Below are positions 1 through 47,390 of a stretch of DNA of 47,566 nucleotides, piece after piece. The notes below the pieces were generated by a model. The model saw only the letters and a list, made by a program, of their open reading frames with translations. It was not told the DNA's origin and did not search any database. Location: positions 1 through 47,566 of the forward strand of contig CALWLN010000104.1 in the NCBI GenBank assembly GCA_944381535.1. Reading direction: 5' to 3'. The DNA comes from an uncultured Lachnospiraceae bacterium. Its GTDB lineage: Bacteria; Bacillota; Clostridia; Lachnospirales; Lachnospiraceae. The stretch's first letter is position 1. Every line of letters starts with the position of its first letter. Made by a program: the position numbers and the translations under genes.

Positions 1-1790
1 TCAATAATACCGCATTTCTGCTTTACCTGTGCGATATATAAATTACTGACCTTTAATCCCGTATGCTCCAGTACATACTTCTTGATTTCCTCATAAGTGG
101 CTTTGCTCTCCGCAGCCGTCAAATCAAACTCGTCCATTTTCAGTTCTACCTCGATATGTTGGTCTGAATGAAGTTTGGACAATAAACATACCGTCTCAAC
201 ATTCGCGCTCCCCGGAAACATATCCACACAGCACCCCCGCTCCACCACATACCCGCTCTCCTGCAGCACCGCCAAATCCCTGGCCAAACTGGTAGGCTTA
301 CAGGAAATATACACCATCCGCTCCACGCCAAATCCCACAATCTTCTCCAGCGCCTTAGGATGAATCCCATCCCGGGGCGGGTCCAGCACGATAAAGTCCG
401 GCTTGTCCTTAATCCCGTCCAGCACCTTCAGCACATCCCCTGCAATAAATTCACAGTTAGAAAGCCCATTGAGCCTGGCATTCTCCCGGGCAGCCTCCAC
501 GGCCTCCGGAACAATCTCCACGCCCACCACCTTCTTCGCGACAGGCGAAAGAATCTGCGCAATGGTCCCCGTGCCGCTGTAGAGGTCAAAAACCACCTTG
601 TCCTTCCCCTCCGTCAGTACGTCCCCAATATACTCCCTGGCCGTCTCATAGAGCACCTCCGCCCCCAGAGAGTTGGTCTGGAAAAAGGAAAAAGGCGAGA
701 TCTGAAACCGCAGTCCCAGCAGCTCCTCATAAAAATAATCCTGTCCATATAAAATGTCGGTCCCCTGGTTCACCACGGCGTCCGCAACACTGTCATTTTT
801 CGTGTGGAGAATCCCCACGATCCGGCCATCTAATTTCAATCCCAGCAGACCATCCGCCATGCCGGAAAGCAGTTCTTCTTCAGACACTTTCTCTGATTCA
901 AAAACCAACTGTTCCTTAGGAACCTCATCTCCAAAAGCCTTTCCCGCCTCAACCTTCTTCTCCGCATCAGACGCCAAAGTCTCCTGGTTCTCCCTTACTG
1001 CGTCACAATCGGAAACGTTCAGAAATCCGCTCTTTGCCTCCGAACCTTTCAAAATCTCCCCGCTGGTCACAAGGTCCACCAGGATCTCCCCGGTTTTCGC
1101 CGCCTTCCGCACCAGCAAATGCCGCAGATACCCCTCATGCCGCGTCTTATGAAAATAAGGCACCCGCCGCTCCTGAAAATACGCAAGCACCCACTCCAGG
1201 ATCCTGCTGAAATCCTCATCCGCAATCCTGCAGCCCGTCACCGTCACAATATCATGAAAACTCCCCCGCTTATGCAGTCCCAACGCCAGCGGCCCGTCCT
1301 TCACCTCGTCCCCAAAGGAAAACTCCATCTTGTTCCGGTACCCGTACTGTCTGGGGCTTCCCTTGATTCCCTCAAACACCCTGTCAAAATCACAATAGGG
1401 CGCGCACACCGGCTTAAGCAGGTCCCGCACCTGCCGCTCCTTCAGCTTCAACTGCTCTTCCCTGGGCAGGCTCAGAAAAGTACATCCGCCGCAGACGCCA
1501 AAATGATCACATACCGGTTCCTTCAGCTCCAAAGGCGACGGCTTAAGCACCTTTAAAAGCCGTCCCTCTCCCTTCCCCTTTCTGACCTTAGTGACACAAA
1601 AGGAAATTCGCTGCCCCGGCAAAACATTTTTCACCGCAACCAAGGGCTTCTCCCCTCTCGCCGCGCCATCACTACCAGTGCCAGCCGCACCATTTTCCGC
1701 CGCCTGATTTTCCTCCTCCAGAACCACAATGCCCTTGTTCGGAAAATCCACCCGCTCTACCATTCCTTCATAGATCTGTCCCTTTTTCAT
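1..1790 (-). CDS. rlmD: 23S rRNA (uracil-C5)-methyltransferase RlmD/RumA family, 3' end outside window
   Basis: SAM-dependent methyltransferase of the RumA/TrmA family, expected to make m5U in 23S rRNA (U1939 or U747 class). I read the frame from an ATG at 1790; it stays open to the window edge, giving at least 596 residues, so the C-terminus is missing. An N-terminal TRAM-like region is followed by the [4Fe-4S] motif CX5CX2C at residues 94-103. Later come FFQTNSLGAE, the SAM motif DLYSGTGTI, VLDPPRDG and the catalytic YISCKPTSLARD with Cys497. There are two oddities. One is an acidic insertion of roughly 50 residues before the SGMADG/LHTKND region. The other is a tail of at least 60 residues beyond the usual family end (after VETVCLLSKL), containing IAQVKQKCGII, which I remember as common in clostridial RlmD proteins. 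The family is certain; the exact uracil target is not. Confidence 0.93.
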   Translation of the reverse strand, partial: MKKGQIYEGMVERVDFPNKGIVVLEEENQAAENGAAGTGSDGAARGEKPLVAVKNVLPGQRISFCVTKVRKGKGEGRLLKVLKPSPLELKEPVCDHFGVCGGCTFLSLPREEQLKLKERQVRDLLKPVCAPYCDFDRVFEGIKGSPRQYGYRNKMEFSFGDEVKDGPLALGLHKRGSFHDIVTVTGCRIADEDFSRILEWVLAYFQERRVPYFHKTRHEGYLRHLLVRKAAKTGEILVDLVTSGEILKGSEAKSGFLNVSDCDAVRENQETLASDAEKKVEAGKAFGDEVPKEQLVFESEKVSEEELLSGMADGLLGLKLDGRIVGILHTKNDSVADAVVNQGTDILYGQDYFYEELLGLRFQISPFSFFQTNSLGAEVLYETAREYIGDVLTEGKDKVVFDLYSGTGTIAQILSPVAKKVVGVEIVPEAVEAARENARLNGLSNCEFIAGDVLKVLDGIKDKPDFIVLDPPRDGIHPKALEKIVGFGVERMVYISCKPTSLARDLAVLQESGYVVERGCCVDMFPGSANVETVCLLSKLHSDQHIEVELKMDEFDLTAAESKATYEEIKKYVLEHTGLKVSNLYIAQVKQKCGII

Positions 1791-1963
1791 GTACTGCTCC
1801 TTTATTCACAAGGTATCTTTGCCTTGCGGAACCCATTTTCACAATCCCGCAAAATCCTGTCCCGCCTTCAACGCAACAGAGGCTCACATCACTGTGGGCC
1901 TCCGGTTACTCCTGATCATAGAAAATACATTTTCTACCGTATCACAACAATATTTGATTTTCC

Positions 1964-2212
1964 TTACGCTTCAGCCTCTTCATCGTCATCGAAAAAGTCA
2001 TCGTCAAAATCATCATCGAAATCATCCTCAAAATCATCCAGATAATCCGGTGTGAAGAACCGATACACGGCGTAAGCGATAGCTGCAACCGCTGCCACGG
2101 CGCCGACGATTGCCAGGACCATCAGGACCTTGGACTTCTTGTCTTCCTTCTCGCGTCTGTGTAACAAATCATTGATCTTTGCTGCGCTTAAGAATTCTTC
2201 TACCTTATTCAT
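1964..2212 (-). CDS. Small single-pass membrane protein with Asp-rich tail
   Basis: 82 residues. Residues 1-27 are charged and helical (MNKVEEFLSAAK...EKEDKKSK). One membrane segment follows at about 29-51 (VLMVLAIVGAVAAVAAIAYAVYRFF). The C-terminal tail is almost purely Asp/Phe/Glu, built on DDFDDDF repeats. A Shine-Dalgarno AAAGGAGCG lies just upstream of the ATG, and an extended -10 sits at 2274-2282. Similar short proteins with one membrane helix and a polyacidic tail are familiar from Lachnospiraceae, but I know no function. The tail should face the cytoplasm or the cell surface depending on topology, which the sequence does not settle. It lies between pcrA and rlmD on the same strand. 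Confidence 0.8.
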   Translation of the reverse strand: MNKVEEFLSAAKINDLLHRREKEDKKSKVLMVLAIVGAVAAVAAIAYAVYRFFTPDYLDDFEDDFDDDFDDDFFDDDEEAEA

Positions 2213-2273
2213 GTTGACCGCTCCTTTTTCTATCTATTTTTTGCTGCACTGCATACATTTATTCATCCTTTAT

Positions 2274-2282
2274 AGTATACCA
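2274..2282 (-). promoter_or_regulatory. Extended -10 promoter for the small acidic-tail gene
   Basis: On the minus strand a TG-N-TATACT extended -10 lies about 60 nt upstream of the ATG at 2212. No good -35 is visible at 17 nt, as expected of an extended -10 type. Confidence 0.45.
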
Positions 2283-2319
2283 TATCTTTCCGAATTCGCC
2301 TACCATATTTTTGAAAATT

Positions 2320-4551
2320 TTATATTTTTTTCAGTTTTGCGAAAATGGCGAACATTTTTTTGACCCCAAAGGCATCAAAATCCACTGTCACCTCAAAATC
2401 CTTGCCACCGGCTACAATGTTGGTGACCGTTCCCTCCCCGAATTTCAGATGACGCACCCGGTCCCCCACCGTATAGGGCAGAGATTGACTTTCCGTGGCG
2501 GCGCTTGCAAAATCCACCGGCGTGCCGGCGTAGGCCACCTTCGCTCGAAAGGCCGTCTTGGCCTGCTCATAGGTTCTGGCCTTCACCGACTCTGCCAGCC
2601 GCACCTTCTCCGGCGCATGTCCCAGTAGCTCCTCCGGTATCTCCCGCACAAACCGGGACACCTTGTTGTACTGGGTCTCCCCGCGAATCATGCGCATCCT
2701 GGCGCTGGTGATGGTCAAATGCTCCATGGCCCGGGTGATTCCCACGTAGCAGAGCCGCCGCTCCTCCTCGATTTCCGAAGGGTCATCCGCCGTAATCGTC
2801 ATATAACTTGGGAAAATACCGTCCTCCAGGCCTGCCAGATACACATTGGGAAATTCCAGCCCCTTGTCGCTGTGAAGAGTCATCAGCACCACATAGTCGC
2901 TGCCGCTCTCCAGACTGTCCACGTCCGCCACCAGCGCCACCTCCTCCAGAAATCCGCTTAAGGTAGGCTCGGTATCCTCCGACTGGCATTTTTCCTCATA
3001 AGCCACCGCTTTGCTGATCAACTCGTCAATGTTTTCCATACGGGCCTGGGCCTCTTCCTCGCCCTCCGCCTTGAGCTCCTCAAGATACCCTGTCTCCTCT
3101 AAAATCTCCTCCAGCAGGTCCGCAACGCCAAGGTAGGGGGCTTTGCTACGCATGGTCTGAATCAGCGTCACAAAGGGCTTTATTTTGACGGCGGACCGTC
3201 CCAGGGAGGAGATGTCCTCCGCCATTTTCAAGGCATTGTAGAAGCTTAAATCATTTTCGTTGGCGTAGGCCTGAACCTTGGCAAGGGTGGTGGCTCCGAT
3301 GCCCCGTTTTGGCACATTGATCACCCGGCGCACCGCCAGATCATCCCTGGCATTGTCAATGGTCTTAAGGTAACAGAGCAGATCCTTGATTTCCCGGCGC
3401 GCGTAAAAGTTCACGCCGCCGACCACCTTATAGGGTATGTTGGAAACCACAAAACGTTCCTCAAACAGCCGGGATTGGGCATTGGTACGATATAGGATGG
3501 CACAGTCGCCGTAATTATATTCCCCATCCCGGACTTTTTTTGAAATATCTCGTACTATGTAGTCCGCCTCGTCGTAACCGGTGTCAAACTGCTGAAAATT
3601 TACCTTGTCGCCCTCCTCATTGTCCGTCCAGAGCACCTTTGCTTTCCGTCCCACATTGTTGGAAATGACACTGTTGGCCGCATTTAAGATCGTCTTGGTG
3701 GAGCGGTAATTCTGCTCCAGCTTGATCACCCTGGCATCGGGAAATTCCTTCTCAAAATTTAAAATATTGTAGATATTGGCCCCCCGAAACTTGTAGATGG
3801 ACTGGTCGTCATCTCCCACCACACACAGATTCCGGTACTTTGACGCCAGCGTCTTAATGAGCTGAAACTGGGCCGTGTTGGTGTCCTGATACTCGTCCAC
3901 CATGATATAGCGGAACCGCTCCTGATAATAGTTAAGTACCTCCGGGTCCGCTTTCAACAGCTCCACGGTCTTGACGATCAAATCGTCAAAGTCCAGAGCG
4001 TTGTTCTTATGAAGCATTTTCTGGTACTCCGCATAAACCTCGGCCTGCTTCTTTTTGGAATAATCGCCGGCGACATTTAAGGCAAATTCCTCCGGTGAAA
4101 TCAGCTCGTCCTTGGCATGGGAAATGGCGCCCAGAAAACTTTTTTCCTTATATATTTTCGTATCCACTTGAAGCCGCTTACAGATATCCTTCATCAGCGT
4201 TTTCTGGTCGTCACCGTCATAGATGGTAAAATTATTGTCATACCCCAGCCTGTCGATATGCCGCCGCAAAATCCGTACACAGCTGGAGTGAAAGGTGGAT
4301 ACCCAGATGCTCTCGGAGCCGAAGCCCACCAGGTCATCGATACGCTCCCGCATCTCCCCCGCCGCCTTGTTGGTGAAGGTGATGGCCATGATGTGATAAG
4401 GATTCACCCCCTTCTCCTCAATGAGATAGGCCGTCCGGTGGGTCAGCACCCGGGTCTTGCCGCTTCCGGCCCCTGCCAGTATCAGCACCGGCCCCTCCGT
4501 ATGAAAAACAGCTTCCTGCTGCATAGGATTCAGTGTATCGTAATTACTCAT
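2320..4551 (-). CDS. pcrA: ATP-dependent DNA helicase PcrA (UvrD/Rep family)
   Basis: 743-residue SF1A 3'-5' helicase acting in nucleotide excision repair, replication restart and removal of RecA filaments. The Q-motif region reads LNPMQQEAV and Walker A is GAGSGKT. Further motifs are VDEYQDTN (motif II), GDDDQSIYKFRGA (III), QNYRST (IV), TLHSDKGLEFPNVY (V) and EERRLCYVGITRA (VI). The C-terminal VGDRVRHLKFGEGTV is the Tudor-like domain that binds RNA polymerase in PcrA. An in-frame ATG lies at 4569, but the better start is 4551: AAGGAG sits 6 nt before it and the protein then begins MSNYDTLNP, as usual for the family. It has its own strong promoter at 4582-4610. Confidence 0.97.
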   Translation of the reverse strand: MSNYDTLNPMQQEAVFHTEGPVLILAGAGSGKTRVLTHRTAYLIEEKGVNPYHIMAITFTNKAAGEMRERIDDLVGFGSESIWVSTFHSSCVRILRRHIDRLGYDNNFTIYDGDDQKTLMKDICKRLQVDTKIYKEKSFLGAISHAKDELISPEEFALNVAGDYSKKKQAEVYAEYQKMLHKNNALDFDDLIVKTVELLKADPEVLNYYQERFRYIMVDEYQDTNTAQFQLIKTLASKYRNLCVVGDDDQSIYKFRGANIYNILNFEKEFPDARVIKLEQNYRSTKTILNAANSVISNNVGRKAKVLWTDNEEGDKVNFQQFDTGYDEADYIVRDISKKVRDGEYNYGDCAILYRTNAQSRLFEERFVVSNIPYKVVGGVNFYARREIKDLLCYLKTIDNARDDLAVRRVINVPKRGIGATTLAKVQAYANENDLSFYNALKMAEDISSLGRSAVKIKPFVTLIQTMRSKAPYLGVADLLEEILEETGYLEELKAEGEEEAQARMENIDELISKAVAYEEKCQSEDTEPTLSGFLEEVALVADVDSLESGSDYVVLMTLHSDKGLEFPNVYLAGLEDGIFPSYMTITADDPSEIEEERRLCYVGITRAMEHLTITSARMRMIRGETQYNKVSRFVREIPEELLGHAPEKVRLAESVKARTYEQAKTAFRAKVAYAGTPVDFASAATESQSLPYTVGDRVRHLKFGEGTVTNIVAGGKDFEVTVDFDAFGVKKMFAIFAKLKKI

Positions 4552-4581
4552 AAACCTCTCCTTGTCCAAACATTTGTTTTA

Positions 4582-4610
4582 ATTATAGCCTGTTCTTCCA
4601 GTTTTTTCAA
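4582..4610 (-). promoter_or_regulatory. Promoter of pcrA
   Basis: Minus strand TTGAAA, 17-nt spacer, TATAAT. It lies 31 nt upstream of the chosen pcrA start and is a near-perfect SigA-type promoter. Confidence 0.75.
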
Positions 4611-4721
4611 CCGCAAAATGAGGAATAAGTAATTTCTACGAAATGATATGCTGTTCCTAGAAAAGCGGCTCCCGCATTGCCTTTCTTTTATGAATACTTT
4701 TAAAAACAGAGATTAAAATGC

Positions 4722-4750
4722 TTGTCATCTAGTATTTAATACTATATAAT
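4722..4750 (+). promoter_or_regulatory. Promoter of the DUF1836 gene with a palindrome filling the spacer
   Basis: Plus strand TTGTCA, 17-nt spacer, TATAAT, 19 nt before the DUF1836 start. Positions 4730-4744 inside the spacer form a perfect 15-bp palindrome (TAGTATT, T, AATACTA). An operator between -35 and -10 is the usual place for MerR-type regulators. DUF1836 has a MerR-like domain, so autoregulation is plausible but inferred. Confidence 0.72.
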
Positions 4751-4769
4751 GGAACAGAGGTGAAAAGAC

Positions 4770-5417
4770 ATGACAATCGACACGAAAGATTTACTGAACA
4801 GCATATTATCCAATCTGGCCCGCATCGACTATGTGAAGCCGGAGGACTTGCCCAACATAGATTTATACATGGACCAGGTAACGACCTTCATGGACCAGCA
4901 GCTTCAGGCATCCAAGCGTTTCGACGAGGACAAGATTCTGACCAAGACCATGATCAACAACTATGCCAAAAATGACCTGCTCCCGCCGCCCCTTAAGAAA
5001 AAATATACCAAGGAGCATATCCTGACCCTGATATTTATCTATTATTTTAAAAATATCCTGAGTATCAGCGATATTCAGGCCATTTTAAATCCCATCACCG
5101 AAAAATATTTTGGCAGCAGCGGCGAAATCAGTCTGGAGGATATTTATTCCGAGGTTTTTCGCCTGGAAAAATCCGAGGGCAATCATCTGCAGAAGGATAT
5201 TGCCAGAAAATTTCAGTTGAGCAGGGATACCTTCGGAGATATTGACGAACAGGACCAAAGCGACATGCAGATGTTCGCTTTCATCTGTCTTTTGTGCTTT
5301 GACGTTTACGTGAAAAAGCAGCTGATTGAGAAGATCATTGATTCCCGGCCCTCCTCCAAACAGGAGGAAGCCGCAAAAAAATCCAAAAAACCGGAAGAAC
5401 CAAAGCAAAAGCATTAA
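4770..5417 (+). CDS. DUF1836 domain protein, probable MerR-like regulator
   Basis: 215 residues. The DUF1836 domain (about residues 25-160) contains ILTKTMINNYAKNDLLPPP and KKYTKEHILTLIFIYYFKNILSISDI. This reads as a winged-helix MerR-like fold: the 'tkt.inNY.k..lip' helix and the 'y...hi..L..i..lK..ls' stretch resemble the MerR recognition helix plus wing. The C-terminus is lysine-rich and disordered. GAGGTG lies 7 nt before the ATG. It is followed 13 nt later by the DUF6951 gene, apparently in one transcript ending at the 5833 hairpin. The ligand and targets are unknown; the promoter palindrome suggests self-control. Confidence 0.85.
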   Translation: MTIDTKDLLNSILSNLARIDYVKPEDLPNIDLYMDQVTTFMDQQLQASKRFDEDKILTKTMINNYAKNDLLPPPLKKKYTKEHILTLIFIYYFKNILSISDIQAILNPITEKYFGSSGEISLEDIYSEVFRLEKSEGNHLQKDIARKFQLSRDTFGDIDEQDQSDMQMFAFICLLCFDVYVKKQLIEKIIDSRPSSKQEEAAKKSKKPEEPKQKH

Positions 5418-5430
5418 GGAGGTACATCAA

Positions 5431-5751
5431 ATGACAAAAGTAGTGATCGAACCGGGCGTTTGCGGATTCAAGACCACCGTAACCGCCGAAACCAACGAGG
5501 ATGAGGAAGTAGTATTGAAGGTCTCCAGCGGCTGCGCCAGCGTGAAGGCCATGATGGAGGAGCTGGGCGACACCTTTGACCCCATCGAGGTCTGTCTGAC
5601 CAAGCCGGGGGACAATGTATTTTATGAATATGCTAAAGAGCATTTTCCGGTGCATGCCGCCTGCCCCATTCTTTCCGGCATTTTAAAATGCATGGAAGCG
5701 GAGGGACAGCTGGCCCTTAAGGCGGATGTCTCCATTACCTTTCTTTCCTGA
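5431..5751 (+). CDS. DUF6951 family small cysteine-containing protein
   Basis: 106 residues, starting at an ATG 7 nt behind a perfect AAGGAGG. An upstream in-frame start at 5326 would overlap the DUF1836 gene and is not preferred. It has five spaced cysteines: GVCGF, SGCAS, EVCLT, AACPI and LKCME. No membrane segment or signal peptide is seen. Conserved cysteines in a small globular protein suggest metal binding or redox chemistry, but no catalytic family is recognisable. It is co-transcribed with the DUF1836 regulator. I recognise it as a widespread clostridial protein of unknown function. Confidence 0.82.
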   Translation: MTKVVIEPGVCGFKTTVTAETNEDEEVVLKVSSGCASVKAMMEELGDTFDPIEVCLTKPGDNVFYEYAKEHFPVHAACPILSGILKCMEAEGQLALKADVSITFLS

Positions 5752-20356: not shown

Positions 20357-21100
20357 CTACAGCACTTTAGACAAAAAATCCCGAAGCCTTGGATTCTTCG
20401 GATTTCCGAAAAATTCCGCCGGCGTATTTTCCTCCCGGATCTGCCCGTCGTCGATGAACAGCACACGGTTGGCCACCTCTCTGGCAAAGCCCATCTCGTG
20501 GGTCACCACCACCATGGTCATACCATCTTTCGCAAGCTGCTTCATCAACTCTAAGACCTCGCCCACCATCTCCGGGTCCAGGGCGGAGGTGGGCTCGTCA
20601 AAGAGCATGACGTCCGGATTCATGGCCAGGGCCCGCACAATGGCCACCCGCTGCTTCTGCCCGCCGGATAACTGGCTGGGATAGGCGTCGGCACGGTCCA
20701 GAAGCCCCACCCGCTCCAGAAGCTCATCGGCGCGCCTGGAAGCTTCCTCTTTGGACATAAGACCGGTTTTCACCGGGGCCAGCATAATGTTTCCCTTGAT
20801 GGTATGGTTGGGAAACAGATTAAAATGCTGGAACACCATGCCAATTTTCTGGCGCATTTTATTGATGTTCACCGACTTATCCGTGATGTCCGTGCCCTCG
20901 AAGGTGATGGTGCCGCCGGTGGGCTGCTCCAGTAGATTTAGGGACCGCAGGAAGGTGGATTTTCCGCAGCCGGAAGGACCGATGATGGCGATGACCTCCC
21001 CCTTACGGATTTCCGTGGTAATACCGTTTAGCACCACCTGTTCACCGAAGGACTTGCACAGGGAATCCACGCTTATAAGCACTTCTCCTCTAACGCTCAT
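20357..21100 (-). CDS. glnQ: Amino-acid ABC transporter ATP-binding protein (GlnQ/HisP type)
   Basis: 247 residues. Cytoplasmic ATPase of a polar amino-acid importer. Walker A is GPSGCGKST, the Q-loop is in [10 protein letters not shown], the signature is [14 protein letters not shown], Walker B is [14 protein letters not shown] and the switch His is in VVTHEMGFA. The start overlaps the permease gene by 11 nt; GAGGAGG is 10 nt upstream. Two hairpins follow the stop. The transported amino acid cannot be read from this subunit. Confidence 0.95.
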
Positions 21101-21872
21101 TATTTCTCAGCCTCCTCTCCAGCCTGCCCACGCCAAAGGACAACAGCATCACCAGGACCAGGTAGATGGCCGCCACCGCCAACAGGGGCAGCAGAGGCTG
21201 ATAGGTGACGCTCCGTATGATATCGCCCCCTCTGGTCAGATCCGAAAGGCCGATATAGCCGCTGATGGAGGTTTCCTTCAGCAGCACGATAAATTCATTT
21301 GCCAGGGCCGGCAGCACATTTTTGAAGGCCTGGGGCATAATGATATTCACCATGGTCTGGCTGTAATTCATACCAAGGCTTCGTCCGGCCTCAAACTGTC
21401 CCACATCAATGGACATGATACCGGAACGGACGATTTCCGCCACATAGGCTGCGGAATTCAGCCCGAAGGCCAGCACCGCCACAAAAATCTTGTTGTTGAC
21501 GGACACCAGTATCACGTAATAAATAATCAGAAGCTGTACCACCATGGGCGTACCCCGGATCACGGTCAGATAAATTTTACAGATTCCGTTTAAAAATTTA
21601 AGGATTCCGTTTAAAAATTTATGCTTTCCGTTTAAAGAATTAAGCTTCCCCTCCCGGTCGTAGGTGGAACGCACAATGGCAATCAGAAATCCCAGTACAA
21701 TACCTATGACTACCGCAAAAAGGGCGATGATCAGCGTATTGCCCAGGCCCTGTACCAGATACAGCCAGCGGTCGTCCTCGATAAAGCTCTGATGAAAGGC
21801 GTCCCCGAAATCCAAAAACCACTGCCGCACGGTTGACATAATTTGCCGCACGGTTGACATAATTTCACTCAC
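21090..21872 (-). CDS. Amino-acid ABC transporter permease (HisM/GlnP type) with heptad insertions
   Basis: 260 residues. Membrane subunit of the polar amino-acid importer. Helices are seen at about 44-66, 105-130 and towards the C-terminus. [16 protein letters not shown] and the EAA loop [12 protein letters not shown], continued by [11 protein letters not shown], are typical. The start is a GTG with AAGGGG 8 nt upstream. Two tandem repeats lengthen the protein. The first duplicates MSTVRQ[I/W] at residues 5-18. The second is a threefold heptad [21 protein letters not shown] at residues 79-99, in the cytoplasmic loop between helices 1 and 2. Homologues as I remember them have a single such segment. 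Confidence 0.95.
21583..21645. repeat. Three 21-bp tandem repeats inside the permease gene
   Basis: Units at 21583-21603, 21604-21624 and 21625-21645 share the TTCCGTTTAAA core. The first two differ only near their last bases; the third is more diverged. 21 bp keeps the reading frame and encodes 7-residue units. Confidence 0.9.
21823..21864. repeat. Perfect 21-bp tandem duplication at the 5' end of the permease gene
   Basis: Units 21823-21843 and 21844-21864 are identical and contain GCCGCACGGTTGACATAA. They encode the repeated MSTVRQ near the N-terminus. A perfect copy suggests a recent event. Confidence 0.92.
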
Positions 21873-21884
21873 AACGCTTTCCCC

Positions 21885-22718
21885 TTATTTCTTTCTCACA
21901 ATGATCACCTGATGTGAGGTGGTATAACTGTCGGTAAAATCAATATTCTCCAAACGGTCCTCGGTAACCGTCATGCCCGCAACGCCGATGTCCGCCTTGC
22001 CGGACTGCACGGCGTTGATGATGGCGTCAAAGGCCATGTCCTCGATCTTAAGCTCCATGCCCAGCTTGTCGCACACCGCCTGGGCCATATCCACATCAAT
22101 GCCTACAATCTCCTGTCCCTCGTAATACTCGTAGGGCGGAAACTCCGCATTAGTGGCCATGATCAGCGTGCCGTTGCTCCTGTCCACATCCGCCGGGGAC
22201 TCATAGGGGTTCTTGCCCTTGGTGTCGTCGCCGATGTAGTTGGCAATAATGGCATCCAGGGTTCCGTCCTCTTTCAGCTCCGCCAAGGCCTGGTTAATCT
22301 GCTCCTTCAGCTCCGTATTCTCCTTGGCCACCGCAATGGCGTAATCCTCCTGGGCAAATTCCTCCTCCAGAATCATCAGATCATCATTATTCTCCACAAA
22401 GGCCTCCGCAGGCTGCTTGTCAATCATCACGCAGTCGATCTTGCCCTGCTTTAAGGCCTGCACGGCGTCCGCTCCCTTGCTGTACTGTTCTACCTCGGTA
22501 CCTTCCACTCCCGCCTCTTCCTGTTCCGCCTTAAAATCAGAAGCGAACGTATCCCCGGTGGTTCCAAGCTGCACGCCAATTTTCTTTCCTGCCATATCGT
22601 CTACGGAAAATACCGTGTTTGCCGGCGCGCTGCTGCCACAGGCCGCAAAGCCCATCACCATTCCGGCCGCCAGTGCCAGCGCTGTTATTTTCTTTACAAT
22701 GTTGTTCTTCATCTTCAT
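21885..22718 (-). CDS. Amino-acid solute-binding lipoprotein, circularly permuted family-3 domain
   Basis: 277 residues. A lipoprotein signal peptide ends at GFAAC with Cys27 as the lipid anchor. The mature part has both halves of a bacterial SBP family 3 domain, but in reversed order. Residues 38-163 (VDDMAGKKIGVQLGTTGD ... DGTLDAIIANYIG) normally form the second half. A linker, 164-183, follows. Residues 184-277 (TLIMATNAEFPPYEYYEG ... GMTVTEDRLENIDF ... HQVIIVRKK) normally form the first half. The new ends fall at the hinge between lobes, and the old ends are joined by the linker, so the fold could survive. It heads the SBP-permease-ATPase operon, 12 nt before the permease. The start could also be the ATG at 22712, which is better spaced from GGGAG. 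Confidence 0.93.
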   Translation of the reverse strand: MKMKNNIVKKITALALAAGMVMGFAACGSSAPANTVFSVDDMAGKKIGVQLGTTGDTFASDFKAEQEEAGVEGTEVEQYSKGADAVQALKQGKIDCVMIDKQPAEAFVENNDDLMILEEEFAQEDYAIAVAKENTELKEQINQALAELKEDGTLDAIIANYIGDDTKGKNPYESPADVDRSNGTLIMATNAEFPPYEYYEGQEIVGIDVDMAQAVCDKLGMELKIEDMAFDAIINAVQSGKADIGVAGMTVTEDRLENIDFTDSYTTSHQVIIVRKK

Positions 22719-46970: not shown

Positions 46971-47019
46971 AGGCTCCTGCCAAAGGTCGGATTCTCTCCG
47001 GAATGGCAGGAGCCTTTTT
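46971..47019 (+). terminator. Terminator of the zinc-ribbon gene
   Basis: AGGCTCCTGCCA / TGGCAGGAGCCT 12-bp stem followed by TTTTTC; a smaller TCCGGA lies in the loop. It is just past the 3' end of rnpB on the other strand and may block antisense reading. Confidence 0.88.
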
Positions 47020-47030
47020 CATAAGCAGAA

Positions 47031-47390
47031 CGATAAGCCGGGTTATGTCTTGAATAATCATCTATCTAGGAGAACTGTCGCCAGTTCCCTCAAGCAACCT
47101 ACCTGAAGCTGGCGGGCCACGTTAGCGCTTCTGTTCGGTCTTGCTTCGGATGGGGTTTACATGCGCCCCGTCTGTTGCCAGGCGGGCGGTAGTCTCTTAC
47201 ACTGCCCTTCCACCCTTACCGGATCGCTCCGGCGGTACATTTCTGTTGCACTGTCCTTGGAGTCGCCTCCACCGGCCGTTAGCCGGCATCCTGCCCTGTG
47301 AAGCCCGGACTTTCCTCACCTGCGGTCTTTCGACGCCTGCAGCCGCGATTATTTATTCTACTTATGCTGCCTGGGCGTTGGCCCGGCCTC
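47031..47390 (-). ncRNA. rnpB: RNase P RNA (M1-type ribozyme)
   Basis: The minus strand contains the universally conserved pieces: GAGGAAAGTCCGGGCT (P4 5' side/CR-I), GGTAAGGGTGGAAGG in the specificity domain, the ACAGAAA-type stretch, GGGGCGCATGTAAACCCC, and the 3' end CATAACCCGGCTTA. Size is about 360 nt. The RNA is the catalytic part of RNase P, which trims tRNA 5' ends. The layout fits the A-type RNA expected for Clostridia. Both ends are set from the promoter and from the terminal pairing and may be off by a few nucleotides. Confidence 0.95.

Follow-up and report, generated by a model that had tools for sequence, protein, structure and literature searches.

The window analysed here (the whole stretch of 47,566 nt from an uncultured Lachnospiraceae bacterium; GenBank assembly GCA_944381535.1, contig CALWLN010000104.1, positions 1 to 47,566) encodes on its minus strand, at 21885-22718, a circularly permuted family-3 (PF00497) amino-acid binding protein. 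The usual segment order of this family is A-B1-B2, which homology does not require, and the window protein is a PF00497 member without it. We use “standard” for A-B1-B2 and “cp1” for the window's order, B1-B2-A. It is very probable, in our judgement, that this protein is the lipid-anchored substrate-binding protein (SBP) of a polar amino-acid ATP-binding cassette (ABC) importer, permuted at hinge strand 1, and that its order arose through duplication and loss of the outer pieces, a process that has recurred in the family. The gene is divided as follows.

21885-22718, minus strand: circularly permuted family-3 amino-acid binding lipoprotein, 277 aa (translation of the open reading frame, ORF; Pfam and PDB alignment)
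22638-22718, minus strand: signal peptide including the lipobox cysteine, Cys27 (sequence; Cys27 kept across relatives)
22380-22613, minus strand: segment B1, residues 36-113, lobe 2, canonically mid-chain (alignment; segment hidden Markov models, HMMs; ArgBP domain 2)
22224-22379, minus strand: segment B2, residues 114-165, hinge strand 2 and the lobe-1 C-terminal helices, canonically the chain end (alignment, HMMs, predicted structure)
22176-22223, minus strand: linker between the old C- and N-termini, residues 166-181 (segment limits, conserved residues)
21891-22175, minus strand: segment A, residues 182-276, the lobe-1 N-terminal part ending in hinge strand 1, canonically the chain start (Pfam, PDB alignment, HMMs, predicted structure)

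The reading frame is unbroken over all 277 codons, and the exchanged order appeared in both profile and structure-chain alignments. Against Pfam SBP_bac_3 (PF00497) the protein scored 131.6 bits (cut-off 26.4), split over two stretches, with profile positions 1-92 of 132 matched in the best of them by residues 185-276. The solved chain 4zv1 matched with its positions 9-104 on residues 182-276 (i-Evalue 1.7e-22) and its positions 108-232 on residues 35-163 (i-Evalue 3.1e-21), so that the family's second half comes first in the window protein, and vice versa. An earlier, sequence-only reading of this gene had proposed a permutation at the hinge with the old termini joined and with each expected motif present once; the split PF00497 match, the swapped halves of 4zv1, the segment order called by HMMs and the predicted structure all agree with that proposal, and each segment was found in a single copy. 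The linker occupies approximately residues 166-181, its length being 16-19 residues by choice of segment limits (cp1 median 19). Among 30 relatives, G168 and Y172 of the linker were invariant and P171, S174, and P175 nearly so, as was C27, which was assigned by the lipobox rule.

Only PF00497 and PF10613 passed a Pfam scan of the protein at E 0.001. An OpuAC-type glycine-betaine binder, as judged by sequence family, was ruled out by this result, as was a TpMglB-2-like Type Ic sugar SBP, no sugar-SBP family having passed the same threshold. All 16 listed NCBIfam equivalog models (GlnH, ArtI, ArtJ, HisJ, and cystine SBP) scored under their cut-offs, which presume the full linear order. Since annotation by linear order scores such proteins under cut-off, domain order should be read before a function is assigned.

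We regard an assembly or binning artefact as already refuted. The window's genome is assembled in 241 contigs, which would be the ground for suspecting one; however, a same-genus genome (L005/L054) carries the same order at 88% identity over residues 1-277, and cp1 was found in a complete chromosome, that of Ruminococcus sp. FMBCY1 (NZ_CP074197.1, L112), and in 79 of 80 named loci in public genomes (the best 80 of at least 590). Neither an assembly join within the gene nor an alignment in standard order, the two findings that the sequence-only reading had named as contrary to it, materialised. The 79 named loci comprise 62 single genes, 16 permease fusions, and one two-unit array; carriers include Kineothrix sp. 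MSJ-39, Roseburia hominis An869, Blautia schinkii DSM 10518, and the type-strain assembly of Parasporobacterium paucivorans DSM 15970 (L062). Within the window's GTDB family, at least 63 of 299 genomes contain one unbroken match that starts at query residue 42 or earlier and extends to residue 274 or beyond (G195 was excluded from this count, as its match stems from a standard-order array). Segment order was read in 38 of the 63 (30, and later eight more), and all were cp1; the remaining 25 rest on the single match. Beyond the family, 21 of 391 genomes in a class sample matched under the same rule (ending at residue 273 or later), as did two of 398 genomes outside the class in a phylum sample, G1020 (single gene) and G1074 (array). 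The suggestion that the permutation may prove common in Lachnospiraceae was thus correct but too narrow, as further orders of the class carry it too and so, in rare cases, do genomes beyond the class.

Some cp1 loci differ in detail. In L021, two cp1 genes (523-1320 and 1495-2283) lie adjacent ahead of one permease and ATPase. The eightieth named locus, L108 (3489-5009), and L038 (G209:C50:38300-42800; 1592-3185) each have a cp1-permease gene that is interrupted where B1 meets B2, by an in-frame stop in L108 and by a frame change in L038; each interruption is either a real change or a sequencing error.

In the canonical fold, lobe 1 is formed by A and B2, from both chain ends, lobe 2 by B1, from the middle, and the chain crosses the hinge twice. 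For the window protein, an intact two-lobed fold was predicted (mean predicted local distance difference test, pLDDT, 94.4; predicted template modelling score, pTM, 0.88), from a structure alignment of the window and 54 of the 80 named loci. The predicted strands at residues 122-130 and 266-275 are the two hinge strands, both retained, and the protein is predicted to have the type II two-lobed fold. The assignment of lobe 2 to B1 is supported by the structure of Thermotoga maritima ArgBP domain 2, which fits model residues 4-96 (protein residues 31-123), with 2.3 Å over 84 residues. Comparison with the OpuAC structure in chain order gave long sequential alignments with tied Z values. The cp1 chain would pass from lobe 2 through hinge strand 2 to the C-terminal part of lobe 1, and from there through the linker to the N-terminal part of lobe 1. 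Each lobe would be one continuous stretch, and one covalent crossing would be left, with the cut strand still packing alongside. The interlobe pocket is predicted to be unchanged and should therefore close on an amino acid, and pass it to the permease, like that of unpermuted kin.

Four pocket-type residues, to which we assign amino-acid contacts on the presumption that they act as in GlnH and HisJ, are shared across standard, cp1, and cp2 rows (cp2 being a second permutation, described below): D100 in 86 of 90, R255 in 87 of 89, F230 in 80 of 89, and T250 in 76 of 89. The window protein has all four. The ratio of nonsynonymous to synonymous substitution rates (dN/dS) was 0.116 for the window gene compared with its same-genus copy and 0.144-0.153 for three cp2 copies compared with one another, indicating that both permuted forms are under purifying selection. 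The best reading is that the window protein is a functional flytrap-type binding protein, which would bind and deliver a ligand; apparently, the hinge has been re-cut repeatedly while the gene family stayed functional.

To describe segment order more widely, we read it with three profile HMMs over 213 loci. These loci contain some genes twice (from two collections or two stretches), so that ORF tallies cannot be read as numbers of independent genes; nine ORF calls whose order was incomplete were not counted as units, and seven loci (L002, L003, L004, L038, L051, L108, and L212) contain no counted unit, although L003 later served as an outgroup row. As a control, the same HMMs returned A-B1-B2 in 10 of 10 standard SBPs in which all three segments were found, the eleventh, L002, lacking a B1 call. 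In addition to cp1, a second permuted order emerged, B2-A-B1 (cp2), which is cut at hinge strand 2 and was found in 28 genomes, all distinct. As judged from segment order, cp1 and cp2 would each yield two continuous lobes with a single crossing, by way of opposite hinge strands, whereas the standard order splits lobe 1 and crosses twice.

Units of both standard and permuted order also occur in tandem, fused to a permease. L034 (G195:C2:247500-253500; 1413-4331) encodes three A-B1-B2 units followed by a permease in one 973-aa frame. Permuted arrays of two B-A units ending in a permease were found in L125, L146, L184, and L185, and L183 has three permuted units before its permease. The longest frame, in L147 (G557:C150:1500-10500; 1074-5654), encodes five permuted units and a permease in 1527 aa, while L181 (G832:C65:5000-11500; 263-3715) joins two permuted units, a permease, and an ATPase in one 1151-aa frame. 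Arrays of this kind, in both orders, are plausible candidate intermediates in the change of order. They also raise the question of whether neighbouring units pair canonically as A-B, or whether the permuted chain acts as a domain-swapped dimer, since each internal A in a [B-A]n array precedes a B and canonical pairs would be possible. The A-to-B gaps do not settle this, as those in arrays (8-22 residues) overlap the canonical range (7-12 residues). However, most cp1 genes contain a single unit, and the pTM given above is that of a monomer; we therefore consider such pairing or swapping very unlikely and retain the permuted monomer.

Phylogenetic analysis indicated that the order has changed several times. 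Identity thinning retained 88 of 221 units for an unrooted tree; a rooted tree of 90 units was then made by dropping eight long-branch rows and adding ten standard rows, with the segments aligned in a common order. Nine order changes were required on the 90-row tree (range 8-11 over 1000 bootstrap trees), a count that is independent of the root, while the direction of the changes is root-dependent. Approximately unbiased (AU) tests rejected both a single cp2 clade (p 0.0042) and a single cp1 clade (p 0.0168). A tree of the partner permease and ATPase (63 pairs, quick method) needed 11 changes for the three order states. Judged by these trees, the order has changed repeatedly in the family, at either hinge strand.

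One such change could be located. In genus g457, the gene is standard in G653, G723, G851, and G701 and cp2 in G627 and G763; all six operons are flanked on one side by the same three gene families, and in five of them the opposite flank, as far as it was read, also has a family in common. Two other g457 genomes, G820 (standard) and G868 (cp2), are without these flanks. At the nucleotide level, G653 and G763 align over (i) the upstream and signal region (12-384 on 12-387, 66%), (ii) the A-B1 block (422-958 on 587-1111, 81%), (iii) the B2 block (964-1113 on 388-537, 75%), and (iv) the downstream region (1150-1296 on 1141-1287, 78%). The same block pattern was seen between G627 and G653 (69, 83, 81, and 83%), and G868 against G653 shows the same interior and downstream pattern, with a short upstream match. 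A rearranged interior between collinear flanks means that this cp2 permutation occurred at the locus.

By which route the segments moved is less certain. We favour a route in which the gene, or part of it, was duplicated beside or within itself and the outer pieces were then lost; such events would have recurred in the family, at either hinge strand. The alternative is that a single piece was relocated without tandem duplication of the whole gene; for cp2, the C-terminal part of lobe 1 would have been copied behind the lipobox and the copy at the end later lost. The blocks of G653 against G763, G627, and G868 fit a moved B2 as well as they fit duplication with trimming. Against relocation stand the permease-fused arrays of whole units in both orders, from which it follows that whole-unit duplication does occur in this family, and we regard relocation as somewhat unlikely. 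The route suggested by the sequence-only reading, tandem duplication followed by loss of the outer halves, is thus supported by the arrays in both orders but unproven, as relocating one segment would give an identical end product.

Several observations weigh against our interpretation. For recurrence, (i) the eight long-branch rows (L181 unit 2, three L185 units, two L184 units, L035, and L164) are missing from the rooted tree; (ii) 27 of the 87 inner branches of that tree are weak; (iii) no branch separates the outgroup from the other rows, 5 of its 10 rows falling on the wrong side, which leaves the direction of the deepest changes uncertain; (iv) the AU result for cp1 is modest, and both clade tests were chosen after the tree had been seen; and (v) the starred branches of the permease and ATPase tree force one change for cp1, three for cp2, and three for standard. 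For the origin of cp1, standard and cp1 genes were not found at a shared syntenic locus, genus g207 having both forms but at different loci, so that the proof of rearrangement in place covers cp2 and not the window's own cp1. For function, the engineered precedent lost affinity: an LAO-BP in which one interlobe linker had been cut, and whose old termini had been joined, was approximately 36-fold weaker as a sensor, although its continued binding of lysine speaks for the feasibility of such a permuted protein (PMC5087393).

The single cp1 change forced by the starred branches would be expected if cp1 had been made once, by an old event, with later changes being only reversions to standard in some lineages. 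The unrooted 88-row tree is also in keeping with this history, having standard and cp2 rows inside a mostly cp1 surround. With standard outgroups, however, the window's cp1 clade (24 rows, 86/84) is one branch of a poorly resolved group whose remaining rows are standard or cp2, with other cp1 groups placed elsewhere in the tree; one cp1 clade was rejected, as noted, and at least eight order changes are needed even so. We consider a single origin of cp1 unlikely and prefer repeated change.

These results lead us to a broader proposal, offered tentatively as one that may well be wrong: in this lineage of Clostridia, the amino-acid SBP gene would be a natural permutation hot spot, whose order interconverts in place among standard, hinge-1-cut, and hinge-2-cut forms, through tandem permease-fused arrays and over within-genus times. 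Each conversion would turn a split lobe into two continuous lobes with a single crossing, possibly selected for the attachment site of a lipid anchor or permease tether. Permutation is usually inferred among distant proteins, long after the event, whereas here close relatives show three orders of one gene, with different orders at the same locus within one genus and array forms that resemble the expected intermediates. The route, reversibility, and functional cost of permutation are therefore directly testable in one small, well-understood family.

The window SBP gene is the first of an SBP-permease-ATPase operon, as the sequence-only reading had stated. Its partners are as follows.

21090-21872, minus strand: ABC permease, PF00528; the nearest NCBIfam models are cystine and glutamine permeases, all under cut-off except the 3TM-domain model (profile search)
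20357-21100, minus strand: ABC ATPase, PF00005; the nearest NCBIfam model is GlnQ, 309.5 bits against a cut-off of 379 (profile search)

Both partner genes were present in 29 of the first 30 loci read (in L032 only the permease was seen). Two in-frame tandem repeats, which had been offered as a clue to the route of permutation, are real features of the permease gene: an exact 21-nt repeat in two copies (21823-21864) and a 21-nt-spaced unit in three (21572-21644). However, the exact repeat is absent from the same-genus genome, which has the permutation, and the repeats are therefore not evidence for its origin. In eight g457 genomes (L214, L215, L216, L217, L218, L219, L220, and L221), a hairpin-like stretch and a T run were seen by eye after the SBP stop and before the permease; this is perhaps a partial terminator setting SBP levels above those of the permease. 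Elsewhere in the window, 47018-47364 (minus strand) encodes RNase P RNA of bacterial class A.

Natural permutation is known in other SBP families; what is surprising here is that it recurs, that it uses two cut sites, and that in one case it took place at the locus. A literature search limited to open-licence papers, and thus a weak test of absence, returned no report of natural permutation in family-3 amino-acid SBPs. The canonical members of this family (GlnH, HisJ, ArtI/J, and T. maritima ArgBP) resemble the window protein in their homologous segments, conserved residues, export or lipoprotein nature, and permease and ATPase partners, and differ in running A-B1-B2 where the window protein runs B1-B2-A. 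GlnPQ (SBD1-SBD2-permease, where SBD is a substrate-binding domain) has tandem, permease-fused domains of the same family, as do the arrays described here; its units are in standard order, while ours are permuted and single or arrayed. Residues 39-272 of the window protein align linearly on positions 105-326 of the GlnPQ tandem chain 6h30, across the SBD1/SBD2 border, as expected if the permuted protein corresponds to the middle of a tandem duplicate. The two SBDs of GlnPQ are reported to bind largely independently (PMC8025302).

Two natural precedents are described in earlier reports. The glycine-betaine binders OpuAC (2b4l) and ProX (1r9l/1sw1) are permuted relative to each other (PMC2395249), and the glucose-binding Tp0684/TpMglB-2 of Treponema pallidum (“Type Ic / Cluster Bc”) and its kin are also naturally permuted, for which its authors propose tethering as a possible reason (PMC4990184). 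TpMglB-2, like the window protein, is a naturally permuted, tethered binding protein, and it has retained ligand binding (PMC4990184); however, it has the Type I sugar-binding fold, in which its permutation adds a fourth hinge crossing, whereas in the window protein one of two crossings would be lost. The closest likeness in design is to the cpLAO-BP Förster resonance energy transfer (FRET) sensors, in which one interlobe linker was likewise removed, the old ends were joined, and the new termini lie on separate lobes (PMC5087393). Those sensors are man-made, with a (GGS)4 linker, while the window type is natural, recurrent, and under purifying selection. Nature thus uses the sensor engineers' cut, and its linkers could be borrowed to improve the sensors.
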